DNA from: a virus
IMG/VR virus record: IMGVR_UViG_3300030098_003709
Coordinates: 1 to 23,861 of that record
Strand: one strand, 5' to 3'
Length of the DNA stretch: 23,861 bases
Part shown: piece by piece, positions 146-22,780 of the stretch
Layout: every line of letters begins with the position of its first letter
Numbering within the stretch: the stretch's first letter is position 1
Notes under the pieces: generated by a model
Told to the model about the DNA's origin: nothing
The model's input: the letters and a program-made list of their open reading frames with translations, nothing else
Databases searched by the model: none
Translations under genes and position numbers: made by a program

Positions 146-1225
146 CTACACCGCCAGTGCTGGTATGCCTGATCCTGAGTTTGCTACAAATGGATTTTCT
201 GCAAAGGCTGCATATACATAATTAGTATTATCACTATTGATATTACTTTCCGTACCTCTACATCTAAATCCGTTGCTTAAAAAATTAAAAGTAAAGTTAG
301 AGTCTGCATTGTCTCCATCAGTTGTGTCTGCTTCTAAAATTTGTCCTAAATTGTTATAAGCAAATCCATTAGATGCATCTTCTCCAGATTTATTATTATA
401 TATAATCCAGTTCCAACCATTACTTCCACCTGAATAACGTATCATTACAAAAGCAGGTCTAAATCCTGTGTGTACTTTAGCACCATGACTTGTTCCATTA
501 CCATTGTATCTGCCAAAAGCTGAAAAGCCAGGTACTGTTTTAAATGCATAAACTAGATAAGTACCAGCTCCAGTATTAACTAAAGAGCTACCACCTAAAG
601 TTATATTTACGTCATCGGGAGCTGTGTCATACCATCTATCAGTACTAGTAGCAAAAGCATCTGTTGTATCTAATTCTTGATATTTAGTAGCACCCGTTGC
701 TTGGTGATACACTTGCCAGTTGGCAGCGCTATCATATCTTTTAACTATAAAAAATTGTGGAGCTGCTCCAAGACCATGAGCTAGTTTATCTCCGTTATTT
801 CCATTGCCTCCATATTTTAAAATACTAAAGCCAGATGTTGTATTAATAGAGTAAGTTGAAGGCGTAATTGTTGTTGAGCCATTAGTTGCTATTCCTGATG
901 TTGTTCCAGCTTTCCAATTCCAACTTACATAAGTTCCACCATTTGCATTTACCATACTGTTAGTTCCTACGGTAAATCCATCAGAATTAAAAGCTGTCAT
1001 CATATTTGTAGTTGAATCTTCTGCGTTGTTGTTGTCAGTAAAAAGAGTTTTATTAACTCCTCTTACTGAATCTGTAAGTGCGTGACTATCAGTTGTTCTT
1101 TTTTTAATCCAAACTAAATCTGGTTGAAATGCTAAACCTGTGTTATTTAACGAACTGCCTGTGCCTGTATAAAGCTTGGTGTCGTAATAACTTTTTGGTT
1201 TATTTATTGCTCCAAATACTGCCAT
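146..1225 (-). CDS. Cassette protein A1: DUF7483-like triple-repeat fibre protein (359 aa)
   Basis: Third gene of cassette 1. The protein is low in cysteine and rich in Gly, Asn, Thr and Tyr, as expected for an extracellular beta-rich phage fibre protein. It contains three internal repeats at about residues 16-106, 135-230 and 236-345. Each has a Gly-rich turn, a (G)F-x-P-x-x-x-(I/V)(K/R) strand (FQPDLVWIKKR, APQFFIVKR, FRPAFVMIR) and a closing strand with N-x-x-(G/N)-x-Y-(V/L)-x-(W/Y) (TYVSWNWKA, TYLVYAFKT, NYVYAAFAE). This pattern matches the DUF7483 family of marine phages by memory; no function is established for it. A GGAGG site lies in the last codons of the upstream gene, 6 bases before the ATG. 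Likely role: virion surface or receptor-binding accessory protein. It is the most divergent of the three A copies. Confidence 0.72.
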   Translation of the reverse strand: MAVFGAINKPKSYYDTKLYTGTGSSLNNTGLAFQPDLVWIKKRTTDSHALTDSVRGVNKTLFTDNNNAEDSTTNMMTAFNSDGFTVGTNSMVNANGGTYVSWNWKAGTTSGIATNGSTTITPSTYSINTTSGFSILKYGGNGNNGDKLAHGLGAAPQFFIVKRYDSAANWQVYHQATGATKYQELDTTDAFATSTDRWYDTAPDDVNITLGGSSLVNTGAGTYLVYAFKTVPGFSAFGRYNGNGTSHGAKVHTGFRPAFVMIRYSGGSNGWNWIIYNNKSGEDASNGFAYNNLGQILEADTTDGDNADSNFTFNFLSNGFRCRGTESNINSDNTNYVYAAFAENPFVANSGSGIPALAV

Positions 1226-1227
1226 AA

Positions 1228-2613
1228 TTATCCTCCAAATTGTACTATATTTTTTGTGTTAAGTGCATAATAACCTGTGGGCACTGTGTATTCAAATCTA
1301 GCTTCACCTTCACCATCAGTAGTAGCCGATGTCACATCAGTTGTTCCAAAATAACCATTCCCAAAGTTTGCTTCTAAATATTCAGATGTATTATTATTAG
1401 TGATTCCAACTGCAGGAGTCCACCAAAAATCAGATGAACCCATAGAGCTATACATAGCATTTGTTGTTGTACCATTTTCTATTTCTGTTTGAGTTGCAGA
1501 GTTTAACCACGTTCCATTTCTTCCAATCCAAATAGCTCGTGTTGTAGCATCAAAAGCATATTGAAAAATATCTCCTGTACTTGCGCCAGAAACACCACCC
1601 CAAGAAGTACCAGAACTACTAGAATTCCATTTTTCGCTATTACCATTAGTTAAACCAAAAGAATAACCATAGTCAAATTTACCGGGAAAACCATTACCAC
1701 TACTAGACATAAAGTATGTTGTCATATTTTCTGATTGAGCATTATATCCAATAACTCCACATTGCCAGTTAGCTTGATTATATTTAACTTCCCAATACCA
1801 TTTACCACCCCAAACTGTATGTGTTCCTAAAGCTCCTAAGTAGCTACCATTTCTAGCTACCGATAAATTTCCATTTTGAATATTAAGACCAGAAGGGTCA
1901 AAAGAACTAGTATCCCAAACATTATAATTATTACTAGGGTTATCCATAGTTGGAGTTAATGTACCAGCTCCTGATGACCAGTTATTTCCTAAACCAGACT
2001 GATCAGTAAGTGATGCGTTGTCTTTAAATAAATACCATCCTGTCGTTCCATAGCTTACTCCACTAGGAGCTTTAAATTGCCATTGACCTGTCGTAGAATT
2101 ACTTTCTCCAAAGTTAGTTGCAGCATAAGCATTACCATCACAATAAACAAAGTGAGAAAATAGGCCTGTAAAATAATTAGCTGCGGCATTAGCACCAAGA
2201 TAACTTACATATGCTTCACCCATCATTAAATTAGTATTTTGTGCTGGATAACCAGGACTGTCTAATGAAGCATCAGGTACCTGAACTCCATTAGCATAAA
2301 CTTTAATTCTATCAATGTTAGTAGCTTGAGTTGTGTCAATCGCAATTACGATATGATACCAAGCAGTTGGATCGCAAAATACTTTTTTAGTTTTTATATA
2401 AAAAGTGTTACTTCCACTAACATTTTGTCTAACAAGTAAAGAATCTGTGTCTTCAAATGCAATTTGAAAATAATCACTACCATTTATTATTCTGTACATA
2501 ACTTCAGTATCAGATGCATCATTAATAAGTCCTCTTTTTACCCAAAAAGAAAAAGTACCTTGTTGGTGATTTCCACCATCTTGCATTGTTCGTGTAATAT
2601 AAGTTGTAGCCAT
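1228..2613 (-). CDS. Cassette protein B1: LamG-like plus SPRY-like lectin-fold fibre protein (461 aa)
   Basis: Second gene of cassette 1. Residues about 18-170 look like a LamG / concanavalin A-like jelly roll: FSFWVKRG near the start, then WYHIVIAIDTTQ at 85-96, DRIKVYANGV at 101-110 and a closing segment near CDGNAYAATNFGE. Residues about 250-425 look like a second SPRY-type sandwich (KWYWEVKYNQ at 271-280, CGVIGYNA, and later ANFGNGYFGTT). The C-terminus GYYALNTKNI is shared in form with B2 and B3. Such tandem lectin folds in phages commonly bind surface glycans, so a host-recognition role is inferred. The gene begins 1 base after C1 without a nearby Shine-Dalgarno, suggesting coupled translation. 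B1 is clearly more divergent than B2 and B3 are from each other, for example SNSTTGQW where they have FDST-x-GIW. Confidence 0.75.
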   Translation of the reverse strand: MATTYITRTMQDGGNHQQGTFSFWVKRGLINDASDTEVMYRIINGSDYFQIAFEDTDSLLVRQNVSGSNTFYIKTKKVFCDPTAWYHIVIAIDTTQATNIDRIKVYANGVQVPDASLDSPGYPAQNTNLMMGEAYVSYLGANAAANYFTGLFSHFVYCDGNAYAATNFGESNSTTGQWQFKAPSGVSYGTTGWYLFKDNASLTDQSGLGNNWSSGAGTLTPTMDNPSNNYNVWDTSSFDPSGLNIQNGNLSVARNGSYLGALGTHTVWGGKWYWEVKYNQANWQCGVIGYNAQSENMTTYFMSSSGNGFPGKFDYGYSFGLTNGNSEKWNSSSSGTSWGGVSGASTGDIFQYAFDATTRAIWIGRNGTWLNSATQTEIENGTTTNAMYSSMGSSDFWWTPAVGITNNNTSEYLEANFGNGYFGTTDVTSATTDGEGEARFEYTVPTGYYALNTKNIVQFGG

Positions 2614-2614
2614 A

Positions 2615-3439
2615 CTAGTTAAATTGCGCGCCTCCTGACGCTCCGTGAGATATTGTTATACTGAATGCTCTATCAGCTGTTTGAGCCTCAGCATCCGTTG
2701 CTCTGATAGTAAAGTTGTAAGTAGTTGTCGCTGTTGATCCGCTTTCAGTTCCTGAAATAACTCCAGTTCCAGTATTAAGCGTAACTCCACCAGGAAAACT
2801 TCCAGATTGCAATGCAAAACTTGTAGCAGATGTAGCAGCAACAGTATATGAAACTGCACTTCCTGCAGCGTTAGTTCCTAAGGAACCAGCGCTAGTTGTC
2901 CAAGATGGGGCATCGGAAACTGTTAATAAAGCAGTTCCAGATCTTACCGCATTACCATCATTGTTCTCTATTCTTATATAATATGTTCCATCAACAGACA
3001 ATGTAAAATTGCAAGTTAATGAGGTAGCACTTGTAAAAGTCACACTATCAGCAGCTGTAATAGACCCTGTAGAAGCATTAATAGCATCAACATAAGGCAC
3101 TGAAACATAATTAGTTCCTGTAATTGTTACCGCTGTTTGTGTATTTTCAATTACCGAAGGACTAATTGAAGAAATAGTAGGTTTAGTTTCTCCTACTGTA
3201 ACTGATCCCCCTAAAGAAACAGCTGATCCATTTATAGTAATAGCACTGTTAGACAGTTTTGCATTATCTATAGAGCCAGCTAAATTCGCATTTGTGACTG
3301 AAGTATTTGGTAAATTAACTGTAGCATTAGTAGTGGTTAATGTTGCTCCACTTGGTACAGTAAATGTATCGCCGGAATCCCCCAGTTGTACTGCGGTTCC
3401 TGATCTCGGTGTTACTTTATTTACTTTTACTTCACTCAT
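2615..3439 (-). CDS. Cassette protein C1: Ig-like (IPT/TIG plus putative Ig) fibre protein (274 aa)
   Basis: First gene of cassette 1. Residues 1-45 are a short Ser/Thr/Gly-rich N-terminus (SGTAVQLGDSGDTFTVPSGA) that recurs at the start of many marine phage fibre proteins. A very conserved linker follows (SIDNAKLSNSAITINGSAVS). Residues about 85-175 resemble an IPT/TIG domain (KPTISSISPSVI, VTITGTNYVSVP, GTYYIRIENNDGNAVRS). Residues about 178-265 resemble the He_PIG-type putative Ig domain (GGVTLNTGTGVISGT, TTTYNFTIRATDAEAQTADR). Ig-like domains on phage virions are known to attach weakly to surfaces or to act as stalk elements; either fits here. C1 is roughly four-fifths identical to C2 and C3 over the domains by eye. 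It starts 2 bases past A2's stop with only a weak Shine-Dalgarno. Confidence 0.75.
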   Translation of the reverse strand: MSEVKVNKVTPRSGTAVQLGDSGDTFTVPSGATLTTTNATVNLPNTSVTNANLAGSIDNAKLSNSAITINGSAVSLGGSVTVGETKPTISSISPSVIENTQTAVTITGTNYVSVPYVDAINASTGSITAADSVTFTSATSLTCNFTLSVDGTYYIRIENNDGNAVRSGTALLTVSDAPSWTTSAGSLGTNAAGSAVSYTVAATSATSFALQSGSFPGGVTLNTGTGVISGTESGSTATTTYNFTIRATDAEAQTADRAFSITISHGASGGAQFN

Positions 3440-3441
3440 AA

Positions 3442-4458
3442 TTATCTGGCCGTTCCTACATCTTTATTAGTAGCTACTAAAGGTTCTTCAGCAAATGCCC
3501 AATAAGCATAACCTGCTGCAGCATTTTGAGCAGAGCTATTATTGTATATTCGGAAACCATTAGATAATAGATCTATTGTATCTCCTGATGTTTCTGCTTC
3601 GGTACTGTCAACATACAAAGTTTTAATTGCTCCATTAAATCCTCTTTTTGCATCTCTAATTTGCCATTGGTCAGTTCCACTTATAGCTTTTTGAATAAGT
3701 AAACCAGGTTTAAAGCCCGTGAAAACGAAGGGGCCATCCGAGTCGTTATTGCCGATATATTTTCCAATTTTTGAAAATCCGGGTTTTTCTACAAAAGCAT
3801 AAGCTATATAAGTTCCACCACTTGCATTGACATCTGTACCAACGCCAATACTAAATACAGAACTTGTTGGATCTGTATCGTTCCAATAATTAGCACTTGT
3901 TACTTCAGCAGCTGAAGTGTCCCAGATTAAATGTTTTTGCGCTCCTACTGATTTATGATAAACACTCCATTGAGCAGAAGTATCTAATCTTTTAACTATT
4001 ACTAATTTGGGAGCTTCACCTAATCCATGAGCAATCGTTCCATTACTTCCTGTGCCTGTGTATGCATAAATTCCTACTCCAGTTGTAGCATTAATAGAAT
4101 AACCAGATGGAGTTATAGTTCCTCCAGATATTCCAGTTGTTGTTGCAGCTGTCCAAGACCAACCTACATAAGTTCCAGCATTTGCATTTACAAGTGTTGC
4201 AGTTCCTAAAACAAAACCATCTGCATTAAAAGATTTTAAAGTTTCTGCCGTTGTATCTTGTAAAGATGGGTCATTAGGATAAACTATTTTTGTTGCTCCT
4301 CTAACAGCGTCAGTCATAACATGGTCTTTTATTTCTCTTCGTTTTATCCAACTTAAACCTGGTTGAAATCCAATCCCGGTTATTGTTTGTTCCGCACCTG
4401 TCCCTGTGTATAGTTTACAATTAAAATTATCTTTTGGTTGATATGTTACCCATGCCAT
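3442..4458 (-). CDS. Cassette protein A2: DUF7483-like triple-repeat fibre protein (338 aa)
   Basis: Third gene of cassette 2. It has the same three internal repeats as the other A proteins: FQPGLSWIKRR with TYVGWSWTA, then APKLVIVKR with TYIAYAFVEKPGF, then GFKPGLLIQK with AYWAFAEEPL. The middle repeat keeps a segment nearly identical to A3 (YTGTGSNGTIAHGLG), so A2 and A3 are closer to each other than to A1. The C-terminus ends VGTAR, similar to TGLAR in A3. The nearest Shine-Dalgarno (AAGGAG) is inside the end of B2, about 13 bases from the ATG, which is unusually far, so coupling to B2 (1-base gap) is likely. Inferred role is as for A1: a beta-rich virion surface protein, possibly receptor-binding. 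Confidence 0.72.
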   Translation of the reverse strand: MAWVTYQPKDNFNCKLYTGTGAEQTITGIGFQPGLSWIKRREIKDHVMTDAVRGATKIVYPNDPSLQDTTAETLKSFNADGFVLGTATLVNANAGTYVGWSWTAATTTGISGGTITPSGYSINATTGVGIYAYTGTGSNGTIAHGLGEAPKLVIVKRLDTSAQWSVYHKSVGAQKHLIWDTSAAEVTSANYWNDTDPTSSVFSIGVGTDVNASGGTYIAYAFVEKPGFSKIGKYIGNNDSDGPFVFTGFKPGLLIQKAISGTDQWQIRDAKRGFNGAIKTLYVDSTEAETSGDTIDLLSNGFRIYNNSSAQNAAAGYAYWAFAEEPLVATNKDVGTAR

Positions 4459-4459
4459 A

Positions 4460-5824
4460 TTAAATACCGAACTCCTTTATATTGTTGGTGCAAAGTGTGT
4501 AGTAACCTGATGGAACTGCATATTCCATTGCTCCATTACCATTAGCGTCTGCGTTTGCACTTGCCACAGCCGTTGTTCCAAAATATCCTCCACCTGTATT
4601 TAAATTAAAAGTTCCACTAGAGCTAGACCAAAAAGTAGTACAAGGTATATAAGCTGCTATATCTGTACTTGCTGCAGCTGTTATAGATACAGCTCCAGTT
4701 CCCGTTGCTCCACTAGTAGGATCTGATGAATTTTGCCAAACACCATTTTTAGAAAAATATAATTTTGAATTTGTTAGATCTAAAGCTATGCCAATAATAT
4801 CTCCAGCTCCAAAAGTAGCACCATAAGCAGTTCCAGAGTTATTGTTAAAAACATTTCCTGTATGTCCATCAATCATCCAGCCATTTGAAACAGAAGCAGG
4901 ATATTGATTAGTTCCATTTGCTGGGTCACCACCATCTATACCAATAGAATAATGGTCATTATCTCCAGTTTTAGAAACACATTTAGTTTCCCAATACCAT
5001 TTACTTTGAGTTAACCACATATTACAATTTGTTCCTGTGTAAGATGATCCTGTTGCAATAGTATTATTAGCATCACTAAATGTTGTATTTATATAAGGTT
5101 TGTTGTCTAAAGGGTTGTAGCACATAAAAACATTGGTTGGAGTATCGTTGTTTTGAGTTATACCAGTTCCATTAACAGTATATGTGTTTGAGTTACCTGA
5201 ACTATCTGTACCCATAGCAGCACTATTTGCAAATTTTAAAAAGTAACCATTATTTCCATAAGTTACTGATGGTGCGGTTATCGGAACCCAGATTCCGCTT
5301 GTTGAATCAAACTCCCCAAAAGTTGTAGGAGCATAAGCTAATCCATCTACATAATGAACATGAGCTAATATACCATCTAAATAATCTCCACCACCATTAT
5401 GACTTCCTATTCTAGCTTGGTCTGAAGCTGTGGGTTGTTGAAAACCTAAATTAGCATTTTGAGCTGGAACCGATGATGTTGCAAGATCTGTTTCCTGATT
5501 GCCATTTATATAAAGTTTACATCTATCTAATGCTGTTGATTGAGTAGTATCAACAACTATACATATATGGTAAAAAGCTGAAGGGTCTCTAAATTTTCTA
5601 TTTGTTGTTACTAACATTTGTTCTGAACTTGATAACAAGTCTCTAATAATTATTTGCTTATTACTTGAATCTATACGAATTTGTCCAACATTGTTAGCGT
5701 CCGCATAATTATTAAATAATCTAACTTCACCTTCTGGTGCTGATCTTTTATACCAAAAAGATAAAGTATATTTTTGTGTTCCTGTTGCTGTTCCGTTTGT
5801 TCGCGATAAATAAGTTGTAGCCAT
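4460..5824 (-). CDS. Cassette protein B2: LamG-like plus SPRY-like lectin-fold fibre protein (454 aa)
   Basis: Second gene of cassette 2. The N-terminal LamG-like sandwich is recognised from TLSFWYKRS, FYHICIVVDTTQ, DRCKLYINGN and the closing DGLAYAPTTFGEFDSTSGIW. The C-terminal SPRY-like part is recognised from KWYWETK, the segment DIIGIALDLTNSKLYFSKNG and NTGGGYFGTT. The phrase ALDLTNSKLYFSKNGVWQNS is a classical SPRY-type signature in which a strand precedes a K/R-N-G turn. The ATG overlaps the C2 stop codon as TAATG, so ribosomes finishing C2 can restart here; I see no separate Shine-Dalgarno. Middle segments (FLKF-x-N-x-AA-x-GTDSSGN) are shared with B3 but not B1. Glycan binding on the host surface is a family-based inference. 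Confidence 0.76.
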   Translation of the reverse strand: MATTYLSRTNGTATGTQKYTLSFWYKRSAPEGEVRLFNNYADANNVGQIRIDSSNKQIIIRDLLSSSEQMLVTTNRKFRDPSAFYHICIVVDTTQSTALDRCKLYINGNQETDLATSSVPAQNANLGFQQPTASDQARIGSHNGGGDYLDGILAHVHYVDGLAYAPTTFGEFDSTSGIWVPITAPSVTYGNNGYFLKFANSAAMGTDSSGNSNTYTVNGTGITQNNDTPTNVFMCYNPLDNKPYINTTFSDANNTIATGSSYTGTNCNMWLTQSKWYWETKCVSKTGDNDHYSIGIDGGDPANGTNQYPASVSNGWMIDGHTGNVFNNNSGTAYGATFGAGDIIGIALDLTNSKLYFSKNGVWQNSSDPTSGATGTGAVSITAAASTDIAAYIPCTTFWSSSSGTFNLNTGGGYFGTTAVASANADANGNGAMEYAVPSGYYTLCTNNIKEFGI

Positions 5825-6627
5825 TAGTTAAATTGCCCTGAATTTTGTATGCCGACTGTTATTGTTATACTGAAAGCTCTGTCGGCTGTTTGAGCTTCAG
5901 CGTCTGTTGCTCGAATAGTGAAACTATATGTAGTTTCAGTAGTTGCACCACTCTCTGTACCTGATATCACACCTGTGCCTGTATTTAAAGAGACACCTCC
6001 AGGTAATGACCCTGATTGCAAAGCAAAAGAAGTGGCATCTGTTGCAGCTACTGTATATGAAACTGCAGATCCAGCAGCGTTTGATCCTAAAGATCCAGAA
6101 GAAGTTGTCCAGGCTGGAGCATCAGATACTGTTAATAATGCAGTACTTGATCTTACAGCATTACCATCGTTATTTTCAACTCTAATAAAATAAGTACCAT
6201 CAGTTGCTAAAGTAAAATTGGCTACAATTGTTGTAGCACTTGTAAAAGAAACTGAGTTTGCTCTTGTAATTGCGCCTGTTGTGTTAATAGCTTCAACCGT
6301 AGGGACACTTACATAATTAGTCCCTGTTAATGTAATGTTAGTTGCATCATTTGTAATTACAGTTGGTGAAATAGATGAAAGTGTTGGTTTAGTTTCTCCA
6401 ACAGTTACACTACCTCCAAGAGAAACAGCAGAACCATTAATTGTAATTGCTGAATTTGAAAGCTTTGCATTATCAATTGATCCAGCTAATTCTGAATTAG
6501 TTACTGATCCAGTAGGTAAATTAACAGCAGTATTAGTGTTAAGGGCAATAGTTTTGCCTGATTCACCAACGGTAATTGTGCTACCGGATTCTGTTGTTAT
6601 ATTATTTACTTTTACTGTACTTGCCAT
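5824..6627 (-). CDS. Cassette protein C2: Ig-like (IPT/TIG plus putative Ig) fibre protein (267 aa)
   Basis: First gene of cassette 2. The domain order matches C1: short N-terminus, conserved SIDNAKLSNSAITINGSAVS linker, IPT/TIG-like domain (LTGTNYVSVP, GTYFIRVENNDGNAVRS) and putative Ig domain (LPGGVSLNTGTGVISGT, TIRATDAEAQTADR). Its N-terminal 40 residues differ from C1 and C3: it carries TESGSTITVGESGKTIALN and lacks the VPSGATLTTTNATVNLPN stretch that C1 and C3 share. If that region docks the protein on the virion or on a partner, C2 may attach differently. AAGG lies about 7 bases upstream of the ATG. The stop overlaps the B2 start (TAATG). The function is inferred from domain type only. 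Confidence 0.75.
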   Translation of the reverse strand: MASTVKVNNITTESGSTITVGESGKTIALNTNTAVNLPTGSVTNSELAGSIDNAKLSNSAITINGSAVSLGGSVTVGETKPTLSSISPTVITNDATNITLTGTNYVSVPTVEAINTTGAITRANSVSFTSATTIVANFTLATDGTYFIRVENNDGNAVRSSTALLTVSDAPAWTTSSGSLGSNAAGSAVSYTVAATDATSFALQSGSLPGGVSLNTGTGVISGTESGATTETTYSFTIRATDAEAQTADRAFSITITVGIQNSGQFN

Positions 6628-6629
6628 GA

Positions 6630-7667
6630 TTACCTTGCTAGTCCTGTAATATTATTACTTCCTACAATTGGATTTTCTGCATAAGCTATATACATATAAT
6701 CATTACCACTTGCATTATATTTTGAAGTACTAGTACTTGGTTGAAAACCATTTCCAAACAAGTGTAATGGGTTTGCAGTTTCTTCTGCACTATGAGCTTC
6801 TGTATATAACAAATAGGTTTGATCGTTATATCCTAATCTTTTATTATCATACTGAACCCAATTATCTTGAGCTGAAAAATCTTTTATTATTACAAAAGCT
6901 GGTTTAAAACCTGTGTAAACAAATCTACCATTTGTTCCGTTTCCATTCCCAACAAATTTACCAAATTTAGAGTATCCAGGAATTTCAGCCCAAACATAAG
7001 CCACATAAGTTGCACTACTTGTATTAACTCCACCATCCGTACCAATTGAAAATACTGTTGAGGTAGGTGCAGTTGAGTTCCAAACTGTAGCTGCAGTGGA
7101 TACAGCACTATCCGTATTTAAAGTCATATATTTAGTAGCACCACCTACTGCTGAGTGATATACTCTCCAGTCTTCTGATCCGCTAGTTTTTTTAACCCAG
7201 ATCATTTTAGGAGTTGTTCCTAAACCATGAGCAATAGTGCCATTACTTCCAGTTCCAGTATATTCATAAATTCCAAACCCGTTAGTTGTATTAATAGAGT
7301 AAGAAGATGGAGTTATTGTTCCGCCAGATAATCCAGAAGTTGTTCCAGCTTTCCAAGACCAACATACATAAGTTTCTCCACTTGCATTTAAGTCATAATT
7401 ACCACCATTCCAAGTAAATCCATCTGTTCCATAAGTTATACCTTGTGTTGATGTATCTGCTGCTGAAGTTAAGTCAGGATATATCCATTTCGTTGCTCCC
7501 TGAACACTAGTATTAACAAAATGGTTTCCAGTACCATTTCTACGTTTTACCCAGATTAAATCTGGTTGATGACCAAATCCTGTTAAAGCTCTTGGTGATG
7601 TACTATTCCCTGTGTAGAGATTAGCACTAAACATGTCGATTGATTTATTTACCGTTGTAAAAGCCAT
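6630..7667 (-). CDS. Cassette protein A3: DUF7483-like triple-repeat fibre protein (345 aa)
   Basis: Third gene of cassette 3, the first cassette to be transcribed. Three repeats are visible: GHQPDLIWVKRR with TYVCWSWKAG, then TPKMIWVKK with TYVAYVWAEIPGYS, then GFKPAFVIIK with YMYIAYAENPI. The linker SGGTITPSSYSINTTNGFGI is nearly the same as in A2. A strong AGGAGG lies 6 bases before the ATG, making this one of the few fibre genes with its own good ribosome binding site. The gene lies 8 bases after B3 and 2 bases before C2. Role inferred from family and context: a virion-exposed beta protein of the adhesin cassette. Confidence 0.73.
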   Translation of the reverse strand: MAFTTVNKSIDMFSANLYTGNSTSPRALTGFGHQPDLIWVKRRNGTGNHFVNTSVQGATKWIYPDLTSAADTSTQGITYGTDGFTWNGGNYDLNASGETYVCWSWKAGTTSGLSGGTITPSSYSINTTNGFGIYEYTGTGSNGTIAHGLGTTPKMIWVKKTSGSEDWRVYHSAVGGATKYMTLNTDSAVSTAATVWNSTAPTSTVFSIGTDGGVNTSSATYVAYVWAEIPGYSKFGKFVGNGNGTNGRFVYTGFKPAFVIIKDFSAQDNWVQYDNKRLGYNDQTYLLYTEAHSAEETANPLHLFGNGFQPSTSTSKYNASGNDYMYIAYAENPIVGSNNITGLAR

Positions 7668-7675
7668 AATTCCTC

Positions 7676-9076
7676 CTAAAAACTATTCATTCCTTTTGTT
7701 GATAAAGCTTGATAACCTGCTGGACAATCATATTCAAAAGTTCCACCAGATGCTGTTGGTCCTGTACCTGCGCTACTTATAGCCGTCGTAGCAAAAAATC
7801 CGTTTCCAAAATTAAATTGCATTGTTGCTTTGTTTGAATTTTCTACACAACACCCTGTAGCATGAACTGGTTCACCACTATTAACATATTGTGTTCCACT
7901 AGATATTGTTCCAGCCGATAAAAGACTTCCGGTTTGAGAAGCTCCAGAAGTAGGATCGCCTGAGTTTAAATAAGTTCCATTAACATGAGCATAAAAAGCT
8001 TGATTGTCCATATCTAAAGCTAAACCAACAACATCAGAAGATGCCATTGTAACTGTAGATGTCCAATTACCACCACCGCTTTTTGCTTGAACTGCATAAT
8101 ATCCATTAGAACTATTTCTATTAATCATAATACCGTTTGCAGCACTATCATCCCAAAATTGGGCGGAGTTATTATCTAATATACTAGTATATCCTATTCC
8201 AAAAGCCATACCAGTTTCACTTGACGTATAAGGTTTGCATTCCCAGTAATATTTACCTTTTGTAACTCCTAAATTAGTTATTGGATAAACATAAGTCCCG
8301 GAAGAACTACCTGTGTTACTAACAGTTGTACCTCCATTTTGTAAATAATCTTGAGTTAAAGTTCCAGCTCTGTCTCTTGTTTGAGACAAAAAGGTAGCAA
8401 AATTTTCTGAAGGTGTATCAGATGTTTTAGTTGGTGTCCCAACAGTAGACCATGTATTACCATTTCCAGAACTATCTGTTCCAAGAGCAGCATTATTTTC
8501 AAATTTTAAAAATACTCCATTAGTACCATAGCTTACGCTTGGGGTTCCTTTCGGTTTCCAAATCCCTGTTGTTGAATCAAATTCTCCAAATGAAGTTGCG
8601 TCATAAGCATAACCATCACAATAATGAAAATGTGCAAAATTCATATCAGAATAATTACTATCATATCTTCCTATTCTTAAAGTTGCTGAAGCAATGTTGC
8701 CTGAATAAGTAGAATCTTGGGCTGGGTAATTTAAAGAATCATAATCATCAGAAGTAAGTGCTACACCATTAACATAAACAACGAATCTATCTGAATTAGT
8801 GGCTTGTGCTGTGTCACTTTTTACAACTATATTATACCAACATGCAGGGTCTCTTAATCTCCATTTAGCTTCTAAATCTTCTACATAACTTCCTGAAGCA
8901 AGATTTCTTAATTTAAATTGTGGATTAGCATAAACATTAAACCTATTACTTGTATCAGTATAAAAATCAAAAATACCACCATCACCTGTATATTTATTCA
9001 TTTTAACCCAAAGTGATACTGTCCATTTTTTGTTGTTTGCACCTGAATTTGTTCTTTGTAATGAGCTACTTGCCAT
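7676..9076 (-). CDS. Cassette protein B3: LamG-like plus SPRY-like lectin-fold fibre protein (466 aa)
   Basis: Second gene of cassette 3 and the longest B copy. The LamG-like half contains WTVSLWVKMNKY, WYNIVVKSDTAQ, DRFVVYVNGVAL and CDGYAYDATSFGEFDSTTGIW. The SPRY-like half contains KYYWECKPYTSSETGMAFGI, VVGLALDMDNQAFYAHVNG and FNFGNGFFATT. The C-terminus is shortened (GYQALSTKGMNSF) relative to B1 and B2. The start has only a weak AGGAT upstream and sits 9 bases after C3. It is closest to B2 through the middle of the protein. Glycan-binding or adhesion is inferred from the tandem jelly-roll architecture; no catalytic motif is apparent. Confidence 0.76.
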   Translation of the reverse strand: MASSSLQRTNSGANNKKWTVSLWVKMNKYTGDGGIFDFYTDTSNRFNVYANPQFKLRNLASGSYVEDLEAKWRLRDPACWYNIVVKSDTAQATNSDRFVVYVNGVALTSDDYDSLNYPAQDSTYSGNIASATLRIGRYDSNYSDMNFAHFHYCDGYAYDATSFGEFDSTTGIWKPKGTPSVSYGTNGVFLKFENNAALGTDSSGNGNTWSTVGTPTKTSDTPSENFATFLSQTRDRAGTLTQDYLQNGGTTVSNTGSSSGTYVYPITNLGVTKGKYYWECKPYTSSETGMAFGIGYTSILDNNSAQFWDDSAANGIMINRNSSNGYYAVQAKSGGGNWTSTVTMASSDVVGLALDMDNQAFYAHVNGTYLNSGDPTSGASQTGSLLSAGTISSGTQYVNSGEPVHATGCCVENSNKATMQFNFGNGFFATTAISSAGTGPTASGGTFEYDCPAGYQALSTKGMNSF

Positions 9077-9085
9077 AATTTTATC

Positions 9086-9907
9086 CTAGTTTAGTTGTAC
9101 TCCTGCTCCTATTCCATGTGAGACTATAATACTAAATGCTCTGTCTGCTGTTTGTGCCTGAGCATCTGTTGCACGTAAAGTAAAGCTATACGTGGTTGTT
9201 TGGGTTGAACCAGTTTCCGTTCCAGATATTACACCAGTTCCACTATTAAGGGAAGCCCCTCCCGGTAAAGATCCTGATTGAACTGCATATGAAGTTGCAT
9301 CCGTTGCTGCAACTGTAAAATTTATTGTTCCTCCAGCATCAACAGTACCTAAACTTCCTGCTGATGTTGTCCAAGCAGGAGCGTCTGAAACTGTCAATAA
9401 AGCAGTTGAGCTTCTTACTGCATTACCGTCGTTATTTTCAATTCTTAAAAAATATGTTCCATCAGTTGCTAAAGTAAAATTAGCTACAAGAGTTGTATCG
9501 TTTGTAAAAGAAACTGAATCAGCAGAAGTAATAACTCCAGTAGAATTAATAGCTTCAACAATAGGAACAGATACAAAATTGGTACCTGATATTGTTATCG
9601 CTGTCTGTGTATTTTCAATTACAGTTGGAGTAATTGATGAAATGGTAGGTTTAGTTTCTCCAATAGTAACTGAACCACCTAAAGATACAGCACTTCCATT
9701 AATTGTAATTGCTGAGTTACTAAGTTTAGCATTTGCAATTGATCCAGCTAAGTTATCATTTGTAACTGAAGTGTTTGGTAAATTTACTGTTGCGTTTGTA
9801 GTAGTTAAAGTTGCACCTGAAGGTACAGTCATTGTATCGCCGGACTCACCAACTTGTAATGCTGTTCCTGACTGTGGTTTTATTTTATCTACTTCTATTG
9901 TACTCAT
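9086..9907 (-). CDS. Cassette protein C3: Ig-like (IPT/TIG plus putative Ig) fibre protein (273 aa)
   Basis: First gene of cassette 3 and first of the whole nine-gene array. Its N-terminus (SGTALQVGESGDTMTVPSGA followed by TLTTTNATVNLPNTSVTN) is almost the same as in C1 although C2 lies between them. The conserved linker, IPT/TIG-like domain (ITISGTNFVSVP, GTYFLRIENNDGNAVRS) and putative Ig domain (LPGGASLNSGTGVISGT, TLRATDAQAQTADR) follow in the usual order. It begins 1 base after the preceding gene's stop, in an A/T-only context with no Shine-Dalgarno, so expression probably depends on ribosomes arriving from upstream. Surface attachment or a fibre-stalk role is inferred from the domains. 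Confidence 0.75.
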   Translation of the reverse strand: MSTIEVDKIKPQSGTALQVGESGDTMTVPSGATLTTTNATVNLPNTSVTNDNLAGSIANAKLSNSAITINGSAVSLGGSVTIGETKPTISSITPTVIENTQTAITISGTNFVSVPIVEAINSTGVITSADSVSFTNDTTLVANFTLATDGTYFLRIENNDGNAVRSSTALLTVSDAPAWTTSAGSLGTVDAGGTINFTVAATDATSYAVQSGSLPGGASLNSGTGVISGTETGSTQTTTYSFTLRATDAQAQTADRAFSIIVSHGIGAGVQLN

Positions 9908-9908
9908 T

Positions 9909-10364
9909 TTATATTATTACTAAATTTCCTGTTACTGTTACCGTACCTGATACAGTTACTGGTCCAGCTAAAACTCCTGAATCAATTGTTTGTGTATCTG
10001 ATATCGTTGAATTGTGCGTGTTAATGTAAGATGTAGCTGTCATTGAAGCCGAAGGGGCTCTAGATGCAGGATAAGTACATAATACAGTTTTTGTTCCTGC
10101 AGCAAAGTCAACTAAGCTGTCTGAATTAGAAGAGGAGATTACGGTATCTCTTGAAAGTGTATCAGTAGCTGCGTCAGTTACTGTTCCAATACCGACTTCC
10201 CATTCAGAAGTACCATCGTTTGCTATCGCATAGAATGTATTATTACTGTTTCCGATACCAGTTACAAAAGTTTCGAAACCTGTTTCAGTTCCTGTTAAAC
10301 TAAATGTGCCTGTACCAGTCGTAGTACTAGTCTGTTTAACTCTATCGTTAAGTACAAAAGCCAT
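9909..10364 (-). CDS. Small virion/fibre-associated protein (151 aa)
   Basis: The N-terminus MAFVLNDRVKQTSTTTGTGT, followed by a WEVGIGTVTDAATDTLSRDT segment and AGTKTVLCTYPASRAP, matches a protein type that is very common among marine and environmental phage structural genes; I recognise the pattern but know of no proven function. The last 35 residues are a repetitive beta-helix-like tail (VLAGPVTVSGTVTVTGNLVI), similar to the short fibre tips or trimerisation segments of phage fibres. The gene sits just ahead of the adhesin cassettes and 18 bases after the 150-aa gene. AAGGAT lies about 11 bases upstream of the start. Likely a structural protein near the tail or fibre base. Confidence 0.65.
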   Translation of the reverse strand: MAFVLNDRVKQTSTTTGTGTFSLTGTETGFETFVTGIGNSNNTFYAIANDGTSEWEVGIGTVTDAATDTLSRDTVISSSNSDSLVDFAAGTKTVLCTYPASRAPSASMTATSYINTHNSTISDTQTIDSGVLAGPVTVSGTVTVTGNLVII

Positions 10365-20314: not shown

Positions 20315-22780
20315 TTATCTATTTTGCGACCCTTTTGGTTTCATTCTAGCTAACTTTTCTCTTGAATCATTAGCCATTTCTTGCTTTTCAAGTGAAGTAT
20401 CAGCTCTTAATTCCGCTAATTCTTCATTTTGGTCAAGTTTATCATCATGAATATCCTGATTCATCATTAATTTAGATGTATCTATATCCACACGTGCCTT
20501 ATCATATGCACTTTTTCTCTCATTTTCCATAGCTCTTAAGTCTACTTCTCTTGCTTTTAATTTTAATAGAGGGTCTCCATCAAGTTGAGAGGTAATTCTA
20601 TTTTCTTCTACAGTATAATCAGCAGTTAATTCAGCAACTAAAATAGCTTTTCTTGCTTCAATTTTTTGATTGATAGCGTTAATTTGTTGTAAAAGTTGTG
20701 GGTTCTGTGCTGCCATCATAGTCATTTGTTGAATTTGCATTAATTCAGCTGCAAATTCCATTTGAACTTGTTCTGTAGCCATCAAAGTTATGTGCTCAAG
20801 TATATTCTTTTGAATTGCAGCCATCATTGATGGATTATTTCTAACCATATTTAAACCCATAAACGCTAAGTGAGCATCTATGTGAGCTTGATGGTCTTGA
20901 CCAGGAAATGCCTGGAAAGGCTTCATCCCCATTGCCATAATATGTTCCATACTTGGATCAATTGGTTGTGGTTGTACTGGTGGTGGTAAAATTCCATTAA
21001 TATTTTTCACACCGATGGCTTCATACATTGAGCGATACGCCTGATACATATTGTGCATTGTTGGATTTGAGGTAGCCAACTGCAACTGTGTCTGAGCCAT
21101 CGATATTCTTTGCGTTTGAGAGAAAATATTAGGGTCTGCGACCGGTAAAATATCTACTCTGTCATCAAAATCTTGTACCTTAACTGTTTTTGCTCCACCA
21201 GCAACATCATAAGGATATTCAGGTGGTAAATAAGTTTTGAACACATCAGCTAGTAATTTAAATTCTTGTTTTAGACCTACATATAATCTTTTGTGAATAG
21301 CAGACATTGTTCTGCTTCCTCTTTCAAGTAATGCAACTGTTGTACCTACTGCAGCTCTTTGATTACCGTCGCCCACTTGCATATCTGCAATTGCCGCGAA
21401 ACGTTGGCCTGCTCCTACAACTGTACCTAATAATTGTAATAAAACAACTGAAGGCTCTTTGTAAGGAAGAGTCATAAAAGAATCTTTTATGTTTCCTCCT
21501 GGTGCATCTACATCTCTAAACTCTCCAGGTTGTAATGGTTGTGCATCATCTCTTACTCTTATCCCTCTTGATTTAAAACCAGCTGGCAGATTAGATAGCG
21601 TTCCTGCATCTAAGAGCTGTCTTAAAGCTGTGGTCGCTGTTCTTGACAGTCCACCTATCATGTGGATAAGACCAAAACCATAAAAACCTGTGCCAGGTAA
21701 AAATTTAAATTGCACAAAGTAATTAACTTTTCTTTTTCTTGGGTCGTTTTCTTTGTAGTTTCTTCTAATAGATAAAACTTTTCTAGAACTTTCATCAAGA
21801 GTGATAACATATGGAAGTTTAATTCCTGTAGTCTCACCATCTTTCATATCTTCAAAACCTTCTAAATCTATGTTAACGTGACACTCAATTAAAGTATAAA
21901 TATCATCTTGTTTTAGTTGTTTAATTCCTTCTAGCTCTTGTTCTTTTTTAGTTATCTCATCATTTTGCATTTGAGGTGGTGTTAGATCTATATCTTTATA
22001 AAAACCTGACACTTGTTGTTTTCTCAAATCATTTTTAGGCATTTTGATAACATGCATTATTGCTTCTGCATCATCTAGACTTGTTGCTGAGTAGGGTACT
22101 ACCAAATCGTCGGCAGGTATGAATTTCGATACCGCCCTACCCAAAAGATCATCATAGTAGACTTTCTTAAAAGTTGACCCGCTTAGAGGGAGGTAAAATA
22201 GCATTTGGTCAAACTCCGGTTCATATTCCTTCATCTGGTCCATGATTTGGTAATTCATAAAATCTTTTACTCGAAGGGATTGTTCTTGTTTTTGTGGTGT
22301 TTGTAATCCTAAAATTTGTGTTCTAACTGGACCATCAGCTGGTAATAATTCTTTGTATGCTTGAGCTTGAAATTGTGTAACAGCTTCTGCAAGAACTGGG
22401 TGAGTAACACCTGCAGCACCTTTAAAAGGTTCTGTTCTTGGAGTGTATTTAAATCCTAAAAGATCTAATCCATTTCTATAAGTATTTTCCCACTCTTTTC
22501 TAGATTGTTTATAGTCTAAATAATCACTAATTAATTGTGCACCAATTGGATCTAAAATTGAGTTATCTAAAAGCTCTGCTAAATTTTGAAAATGTGTATT
22601 TGAAGCTTGTGGAATAATAGCATTTGGATCAAAAGAAACTTCTGCTCCACCATCTAAAGTTTCTGTAACTTCAATATCTTTTTGTGGCGCAGCTGGAGCT
22701 CCAGCTTCGACTTCAACTTCTTTTAAGTCTTCAACAGTTAATTCCGGTTGATTAGGTAATGATTTATCTATATCTGCCAT
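20315..22780 (-). CDS. Portal protein, P22-like, with extended C-terminal helix (821 aa)
   Basis: The portal is the dodecameric ring at one head vertex through which DNA is packaged and ejected. An acidic N-terminus (1-60) precedes the body: RKEWENTYRNGLDLLGFKYT at 94-113, PVLAEAVTQFQAQAYKELLP at 128-147, and the wing region near 190-250. The core has GTGFYGFGLIHMIGGLSRTA at 363-382 and LRQLLDAGTLSNLPAG at 386-401. The segment QLLGTVVGAGQRFAAIADMQ at 449-468 followed by GTTVALLERGSRTMSAIHKR is typical of P22-type portals in marine phages. Residues 610-710 are Met/Gln-rich helix and 710-815 a charged coiled helix, resembling and exceeding the P22 barrel (P22 portal is 725 aa). Its start is 15 bases after the upstream gene's stop. 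Confidence 0.85.
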   Translation of the reverse strand: MADIDKSLPNQPELTVEDLKEVEVEAGAPAAPQKDIEVTETLDGGAEVSFDPNAIIPQASNTHFQNLAELLDNSILDPIGAQLISDYLDYKQSRKEWENTYRNGLDLLGFKYTPRTEPFKGAAGVTHPVLAEAVTQFQAQAYKELLPADGPVRTQILGLQTPQKQEQSLRVKDFMNYQIMDQMKEYEPEFDQMLFYLPLSGSTFKKVYYDDLLGRAVSKFIPADDLVVPYSATSLDDAEAIMHVIKMPKNDLRKQQVSGFYKDIDLTPPQMQNDEITKKEQELEGIKQLKQDDIYTLIECHVNIDLEGFEDMKDGETTGIKLPYVITLDESSRKVLSIRRNYKENDPRKRKVNYFVQFKFLPGTGFYGFGLIHMIGGLSRTATTALRQLLDAGTLSNLPAGFKSRGIRVRDDAQPLQPGEFRDVDAPGGNIKDSFMTLPYKEPSVVLLQLLGTVVGAGQRFAAIADMQVGDGNQRAAVGTTVALLERGSRTMSAIHKRLYVGLKQEFKLLADVFKTYLPPEYPYDVAGGAKTVKVQDFDDRVDILPVADPNIFSQTQRISMAQTQLQLATSNPTMHNMYQAYRSMYEAIGVKNINGILPPPVQPQPIDPSMEHIMAMGMKPFQAFPGQDHQAHIDAHLAFMGLNMVRNNPSMMAAIQKNILEHITLMATEQVQMEFAAELMQIQQMTMMAAQNPQLLQQINAINQKIEARKAILVAELTADYTVEENRITSQLDGDPLLKLKAREVDLRAMENERKSAYDKARVDIDTSKLMMNQDIHDDKLDQNEELAELRADTSLEKQEMANDSREKLARMKPKGSQNR

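Follow-up and report, generated by a model that had tools for sequence, protein, structure and literature searches.

Does a phage that carries the same adhesin cassette three times in a row have three parallel fibres, and is the cassette itself the unit that is inherited? The question is raised by a window of 23,861 bases, the whole stretch of DNA analyzed here, which starts at base 1 of a 34,020-base metagenomic virus record and in which nine consecutive minus-strand genes at 146-9907 follow the order C-B-A, three times over. On the strength of sequence comparisons among related phages, we consider it likely that this array is a three-position fibre rack, in which every position combines a fixed dock with an exchangeable head that is predicted to bind receptors. 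SAR11 bacteria, the probable hosts of this phage, are among the most abundant in the ocean, and few viruses on the planet are as numerous as their phages; for most of these phages, to our knowledge, the receptor that is bound is not known.

Organization and lineage of the array

An uninterrupted threefold C-B-A order filling about 41% of the window had been described from the sequence alone, and the ORF listing confirms it: the array spans 9762 of 23,861 bases, no extra gene was found between the nine ORFs at 146-9907, and the intergenic gaps measure 1-9 bases, with the exception of C2 and B2, which have one base in common. All features given here lie on the minus strand. In slot 1, the fibre base C1 (9907-9086, 273 residues), with two Ig-like domains that make up its neck (9086-9661), is followed by B1 (9076-7676, 466 residues), a lectin-type protein with LamG and SPRY-like regions, and by A1 (7667-6630, 345 residues), a DUF7483 protein with three internal repeats. 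Slot 2 consists of the fibre base C2 (6627-5824, 267 residues, neck at 5824-6399), the LamG/SPRY-like B2 (5824-4460, 454 residues) and the DUF7483 protein A2 (4458-3442, 338 residues); slot 3 has the corresponding C3 (3439-2615, 274 residues, neck at 2615-3193), B3 (2613-1228, 461 residues) and A3 (1225-146, 359 residues). Directly upstream of C1 lies U (9909-10364, 151 residues), a conserved gene for a putative tail/connector protein that immediately precedes C1 in nearly all relatives and whose homolog in HTVC023P, gp58, stands ahead of that phage's fibre array. At the other end, the truncated gene D (1-142) matches the first gene past A3 in four viral contigs (L020, L028, L042 and L045; 84% DNA identity to L020), which indicates that the array closes at three cassettes.

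The lineage was placed by the portal, or head-to-tail connector, gene (20315-22780), whose product is 66% identical to that of 023Pt_psg01, 65% to that of HTVC027P and 54% to that of HTVC023P over 90-98% of its length. Behind U stand fibre genes with alpha, gamma and beta docks (see below), a feature also found in HTVC023P (gp58-62) and 023Pt_psg01. By these two features the phage is an HTVC023P-type podovirus, with SAR11 as its probable host. Two such podoviruses of Pelagibacter have been cultured in all, HTVC023P and HTVC027P (PMC9599517). The A protein is absent from 023Pt_psg01, HTVC027P and HTVC023P, and HTVC027P, the second-closest relative by portal, has no annotated array of this kind either.

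As the window comes from a metagenomic fragment of 34 kb, misassembly of repeats might have produced tandem copies. Identity among the copies in the window is 73-78% for C, 42-48% for A and 36-37% for B, so the triplication is old and not an echo of assembly; copies within arrays differ widely from one another (identity no higher than 57% for A and 46% for B), and the same architecture is found in many contigs. The isolates HTVC103P and HTVC104P, moreover, have two CBA cassettes with two genes between them, one for a glycine-rich fibre and one small. Misassembly is in substance refuted by these data.

Relatives were found by scanning viral contigs for C and A, followed by profile annotation. 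Counting C-B-A triplets in other phages, a check proposed with the sequence-only reading, gave exactly three in about 20 viral contigs, near-copies among them (L031/L032, L020/L057 and L042/L044), and a fourth cassette in none of the whole arrays, certain contigs stopping soon after A3. Examples with three complete cassettes are L017, L020, L028, L029, L031, L034, L035, L037, L038, L039, L042, L045, L073, L076, L084, L088 and L117; L088 has a further gene of 535 residues, weakly similar to C, downstream of the array. As relatives repeatedly show three successive C-B-A cassettes, the contrary picture, of single genes scattered among them, does not hold.

Domains and predicted structure

Pfam and PHROG matches back the initial assignment of C as Ig-like, B as LamG plus SPRY and A as DUF7483-like. 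DUF7483 (PF24299) is matched over its full length by A1 (E = 3e-96), A2 (4e-93) and A3 (2.5e-89), with 300-323 bits against a gathering cut-off of 27. Profile comparison of A (6630-7667 in the window, and other A genes) resolved three related repeats of ~95 residues with a probability of 97-99%; no match of A to solved structures was found by sequence, and no mention of DUF7483 in the literature searched. In B, LamG exceeds the Pfam cut-off in B1 only (Laminin_G_3, 5.5e-7) and SPRY in B2 only (3.4e-13), with a weak SPRY score in B3 (0.03); all three nevertheless match a single PHROG, 27411 (8e-61 for B3). The Ig-like domains of C1-C3 are of the He_PIG family (E values of roughly 1e-12 to 1e-11), and the model of C3 (mean pLDDT 87) has two Ig-like domains after a loosely ordered N-terminal third. 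The T7 tail fibre N-terminal domain (PF03906) has no Pfam match in C1-C3 and is present in HTVC011P gp35 and HTVC200P gp034, which shows that C has only the distal neck in common with those fibres.

Many other phages encode B and A as a single fused protein, and the natural fusion of L123 was modelled as a proxy for the two (mean pLDDT 81.5). Its best Foldseek matches, which are not assignable to the A part, include sialidases, laminin LG, pentraxins, galectin-8 and SPRY domains. As judged from profiles and this model together, a ConA-like (LamG, SPRY) lectin-type fold is present.

Extra residues were observed at two places in the arrays of relatives. Many gamma-dock C proteins have ~120-140 of them between dock and neck (L020:10050-11228, L029:9773-10969, L088:7484-8671), and the slot-2 A of one clade also holds an insert (L035:10496-11965, L039:11412-12890). 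Both have a His...Cys..His...Met pattern (HPLRFY...YYQCSSHSNMGN and SHPMKF...YYYCHYHSGMGG) that by eye resembles a cupredoxin copper site; neither insert has a Pfam match.

Three docking tips, one of each

Inspection of N-termini shows that the first residues of C are of three kinds: an alpha tip (for example MSTIEVDKI), a beta tip (MSEVKVNKV) and a gamma tip (MASTVKVNNI, MSSILKVDTI), the last being longer by one residue. In the window, C1 has the alpha-type tip MSTIEVDKIKPQSG (9806-9907), C2 the gamma-type tip MASTVKVNNITTESG (6526-6627) and C3 the beta-type tip MSEVKVNKVTPRSGT (3338-3439). When N-termini of 34 residues were clustered automatically, the three kinds were not cleanly resolved, and explicit motif rules were therefore adopted and then checked on a second sample. 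By these rules, each of the three dock types is present exactly once in 33 of the 35 contigs with at least three docks, a count made on the same sequences on which the types had first been set by eye; the order is alpha-gamma-beta in 22 and alpha-beta-gamma in 11, and the remaining two, HTVC023P and L102, have one extra dock. In the hold-out, a sample reached through gene U, three or more docks were recognised in 15 contigs, and every one of these has one of each type (L274 in this sample is the same contig as L029), with alpha first in 14 and the order beta-alpha-gamma in one (L301). L308 has a fourth fibre, which is glycine-rich.

The docks are not tied to one kind of head. HTVC023P and 023Pt_psg01 have the same dock types, in the order alpha-gamma-beta, under single-gene glycine-rich heads (PF21722), and many racks of the second sample bear glycine-rich heads on all three docks. 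Mixed racks also occur there, with a glycine-rich slot 1 followed by CBA, or glycine-rich heads twice and then C. Given that glycine-rich or other heads sit on the same docks, what is constant is the set of three docks and not three CBA cassettes.

These counts bear on whether C1, C2 and C3 are different chains of one obligate heterotrimeric fibre with a B-A head on each chain. Phage tail fibres are usually trimers, and the three docks look mutually homologous and occur once each per genome, as such an assembly would have it. The genomes with a fourth dock (HTVC023P, L102) argue against it, as do T7-type pelagiphages, in which a single C-bearing fibre gene goes with the same neck, B and A, so that the neck needs no three chain types. 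We regard the heterotrimer as unlikely and favor three separately docked fibres. It is possible, and we put this forward tentatively, that the one-each rule stems from a constant physical constraint in the tail, which might offer three non-equivalent sites or bear a single heterotrimeric fibre; an entire group of abundant ocean phages would then have an obligatory adsorption device with three heads, and these heads (neck-B-A, glycine-rich or other) would be interchangeable modules common to different phage families.

Several further gene arrangements were seen at these loci. A third type of head, at slot 1, consists of an alpha-dock protein of 138-154 residues followed by a protein of 357-472 residues of no clear family (L071:6021-7880, L046:3964-5479, and in L252, L256 and L259). 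A small protein of 115-172 residues that starts with MAHFAKL, possibly a partner or chaperone of glycine-rich fibres, follows such fibres in several phages (HTVC023P gp63, L008:22990-23508; L007:18719-19189; L056:4155-4502; L102:4423-4806; L058:9352-9699). L102 has two non-fibre genes (202 and 194 residues) between slots 1 and 2 (L102:4806-6015), and a short second gamma-dock C beside the full-length one (L102:9242-9688).

Docks stay in place and heads move

Slot number was used at first as the unit of comparison, and by slot the nearest neighbour matched for 55 of 59 C proteins, 27 of 59 A proteins and 24 of 59 B proteins. Slot labels changed 10 times on the tree of C (28.6 when shuffled), 23 times on that of B (28.4) and 25 times on that of A (28.3). 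Dock type fits better than slot number because beta and gamma trade order between lineages: nearest neighbours in other arrays agreed in dock type in all 57 cases for the docks themselves, in 51 of 57 for necks, in 27 of 56 for B proteins and in 25 of 56 for A proteins, the last two being somewhat above the one third expected. The contigs are related and certain ones near-identical, so that these counts do not represent independent events. B and A travel together: when the B proteins of two cassettes were 60% or more alike, the mean identity of their A proteins was 62.9%, compared with 46.0% when A was shuffled within arrays, and none of 2000 permutations reached so high a value.

Five moved blocks of ~3.0 kb, found at different slots in different phages, run from inside C near the dock/neck border to the end of A. 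Four are continuous (L042 slot 3/L117 slot 1, L042 slot 1/L045 slot 3, L039 slot 3/L055 slot 1 and L055 slot 1/L073 slot 3), and the fifth (L073 slot 1/L084 slot 3) is interrupted in B by a divergent gap. A crossover between dock and neck is also seen when the window is set against L011 and L010. The portal of L011 is 98% identical to that of the window, and identity of 97-100% at U and the start of C1 falls to ~60-90% within C1 from about residue 60-100; B1 and A1 are unrelated to those of the window, and identity is again 98% from the start of C3. L010 shows the same drop within C1, and L009 has the same slot 1 head as the window.

An arrangement in which the whole of C is fixed and only B-A moves was considered and rejected, the DNA alignments showing that the neck has moved too. 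The neck does not always move with B and A, as is evident from its mostly matching by dock (51/57). The C-B-A cassette, taken as a unit in the sequence-only reading, is consequently not the unit of inheritance: C splits into a position-fixed dock and a neck that in the clearest cases moves with B and A.

That heads occur at different slots in different phages would also suit a switching reservoir, in which three alternative heads are kept, with expression or packaging of just one at any time. None of the window ORFs was recognised as a recombinase gene, strong inverted repeats beside the cassettes are absent, the genes lie end to end on a single strand in operon-like fashion, and every cassette has its own complete dock, unlike the others. 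We therefore hold a reservoir to be very unlikely and retain three fibres in parallel. The longest exact DNA matches among the C genes of the window are 16-23 bases, which would make exchange inside one genome inefficient today; sequence comparison suggests that head exchange between related phages is more likely than exchange within one genome.

The pattern of divergence also touches on whether B and A are receptor-binding at all, or serve in assembly or as some other part of the structure and simply happen to adjoin a fibre gene. One PHROG that covers regions of both A and B has no label beyond 'virion structural protein', in keeping with the latter. A also matches a PHROG labelled tail fiber, the fused B-A homolog has lectin-type folds (pentraxin, laminin G, galectin, SPRY), and divergence of B and A is fast and independent of position, as for receptor-binding parts. 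A role in assembly or structure is accordingly quite improbable, and we treat B and A as the predicted head.

Proposed model of the fibre rack

In the fibre rack that we propose, the short N-terminal tip of C would dock the fibre at one specific site (alpha, beta or gamma), the pair of Ig-like domains in which C ends would form the neck, and the receptor-binding head would consist of two lectin-like proteins made separately, B with its LamG/SPRY fold and A with DUF7483 and three internal repeats. A head block of ~3 kb, including the neck in the clearest cases, could give way to one from a different position or a different phage, with one crossover within C at the border of dock and neck and the other at the boundary of A with the next C. 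The conserved linker that joins dock and neck would presumably be the site of homologous recombination in such exchanges. B and A may together form the fibre tip, the heads may bind surface glycans or other receptors, and all three fibres may be present on every virion; a single particle could then probe three receptors, and its heads could be renewed position by position. The three heads might also differ in the glycan that they bind or act at separate steps of adsorption, as the earlier reading proposed. The earlier proposal of three parallel fibre or adhesin complexes thus stands in part: an ordered three-protein module present three times is most simply read as three parallel fibre assemblies, but the C-B-A cassette is not their real unit. 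No description of a three-dock rack was found in the literature searched.

Such a rack offers a way to read receptor-binding diversity from metagenomes, in which fibres are sorted by dock and their heads compared. Differences in host range between phages with nearly identical backbones become testable, as does whether one particle tries several receptors at once.

Comparison with known systems

The nearest known system is the tail-spike complex of the Ackermannviridae (CBA120, S117; TSP1-4), which resembles the rack in having several receptor-binding proteins per phage, conserved N-terminal assembly domains, and variable C-terminal parts that are swapped by recombination in the conserved 5' part (PMC11414711). 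Each of those spikes is one protein, and the spikes branch off one another through XD domains with one virion anchor on TSP4 (PMC11414711), whereas the head in the rack comprises two further separate proteins, every fibre carries a dock of a different type, with each type used once, and swaps between types of head are seen. Searches with general Pfam and PHROG profiles gave no match to XD/TD (gp10-like) domains in the nine array proteins. Metaviromic islands and hypervariable regions of marine phages, in the portions of the reports available to us, concern host-recognition genes, lectin-like ones included, that differ between near-identical phages; those portions describe neither a three-dock rack nor a block moving between docks (PMC3909814, PMC10504331).

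HTVC023P and 023Pt_psg01 are like the rack in dock order and have a related portal, with U upstream in HTVC023P; they differ in their glycine-rich single-gene heads, which lack neck-B-A, and HTVC023P has a fourth fibre gene. HTVC103P and HTVC104P likewise have three positions (C-B-A, a third fibre gene, C-B-A), but with other N-terminal docks and the glycine-rich fibre in the middle. In the Autographiviridae pelagiphages HTVC011P, HTVC200P and HTVC201P, the same neck of C forms the distal end of T7-type tail fibres and is followed by B and A, in one cassette on a T7 gp17-type N-terminus (PF03906) and without alpha, beta or gamma docks. HTVC200P gp034 thus has PF03906 at its start and the C neck at its end, and C, B and A matches follow in series in HTVC201P. 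In HTVC011P (NC_020482.1, 31903-32573), similarity to C continues in several pieces beyond the annotated stop of gp35, which makes a frameshift, or a sequence error, likely.
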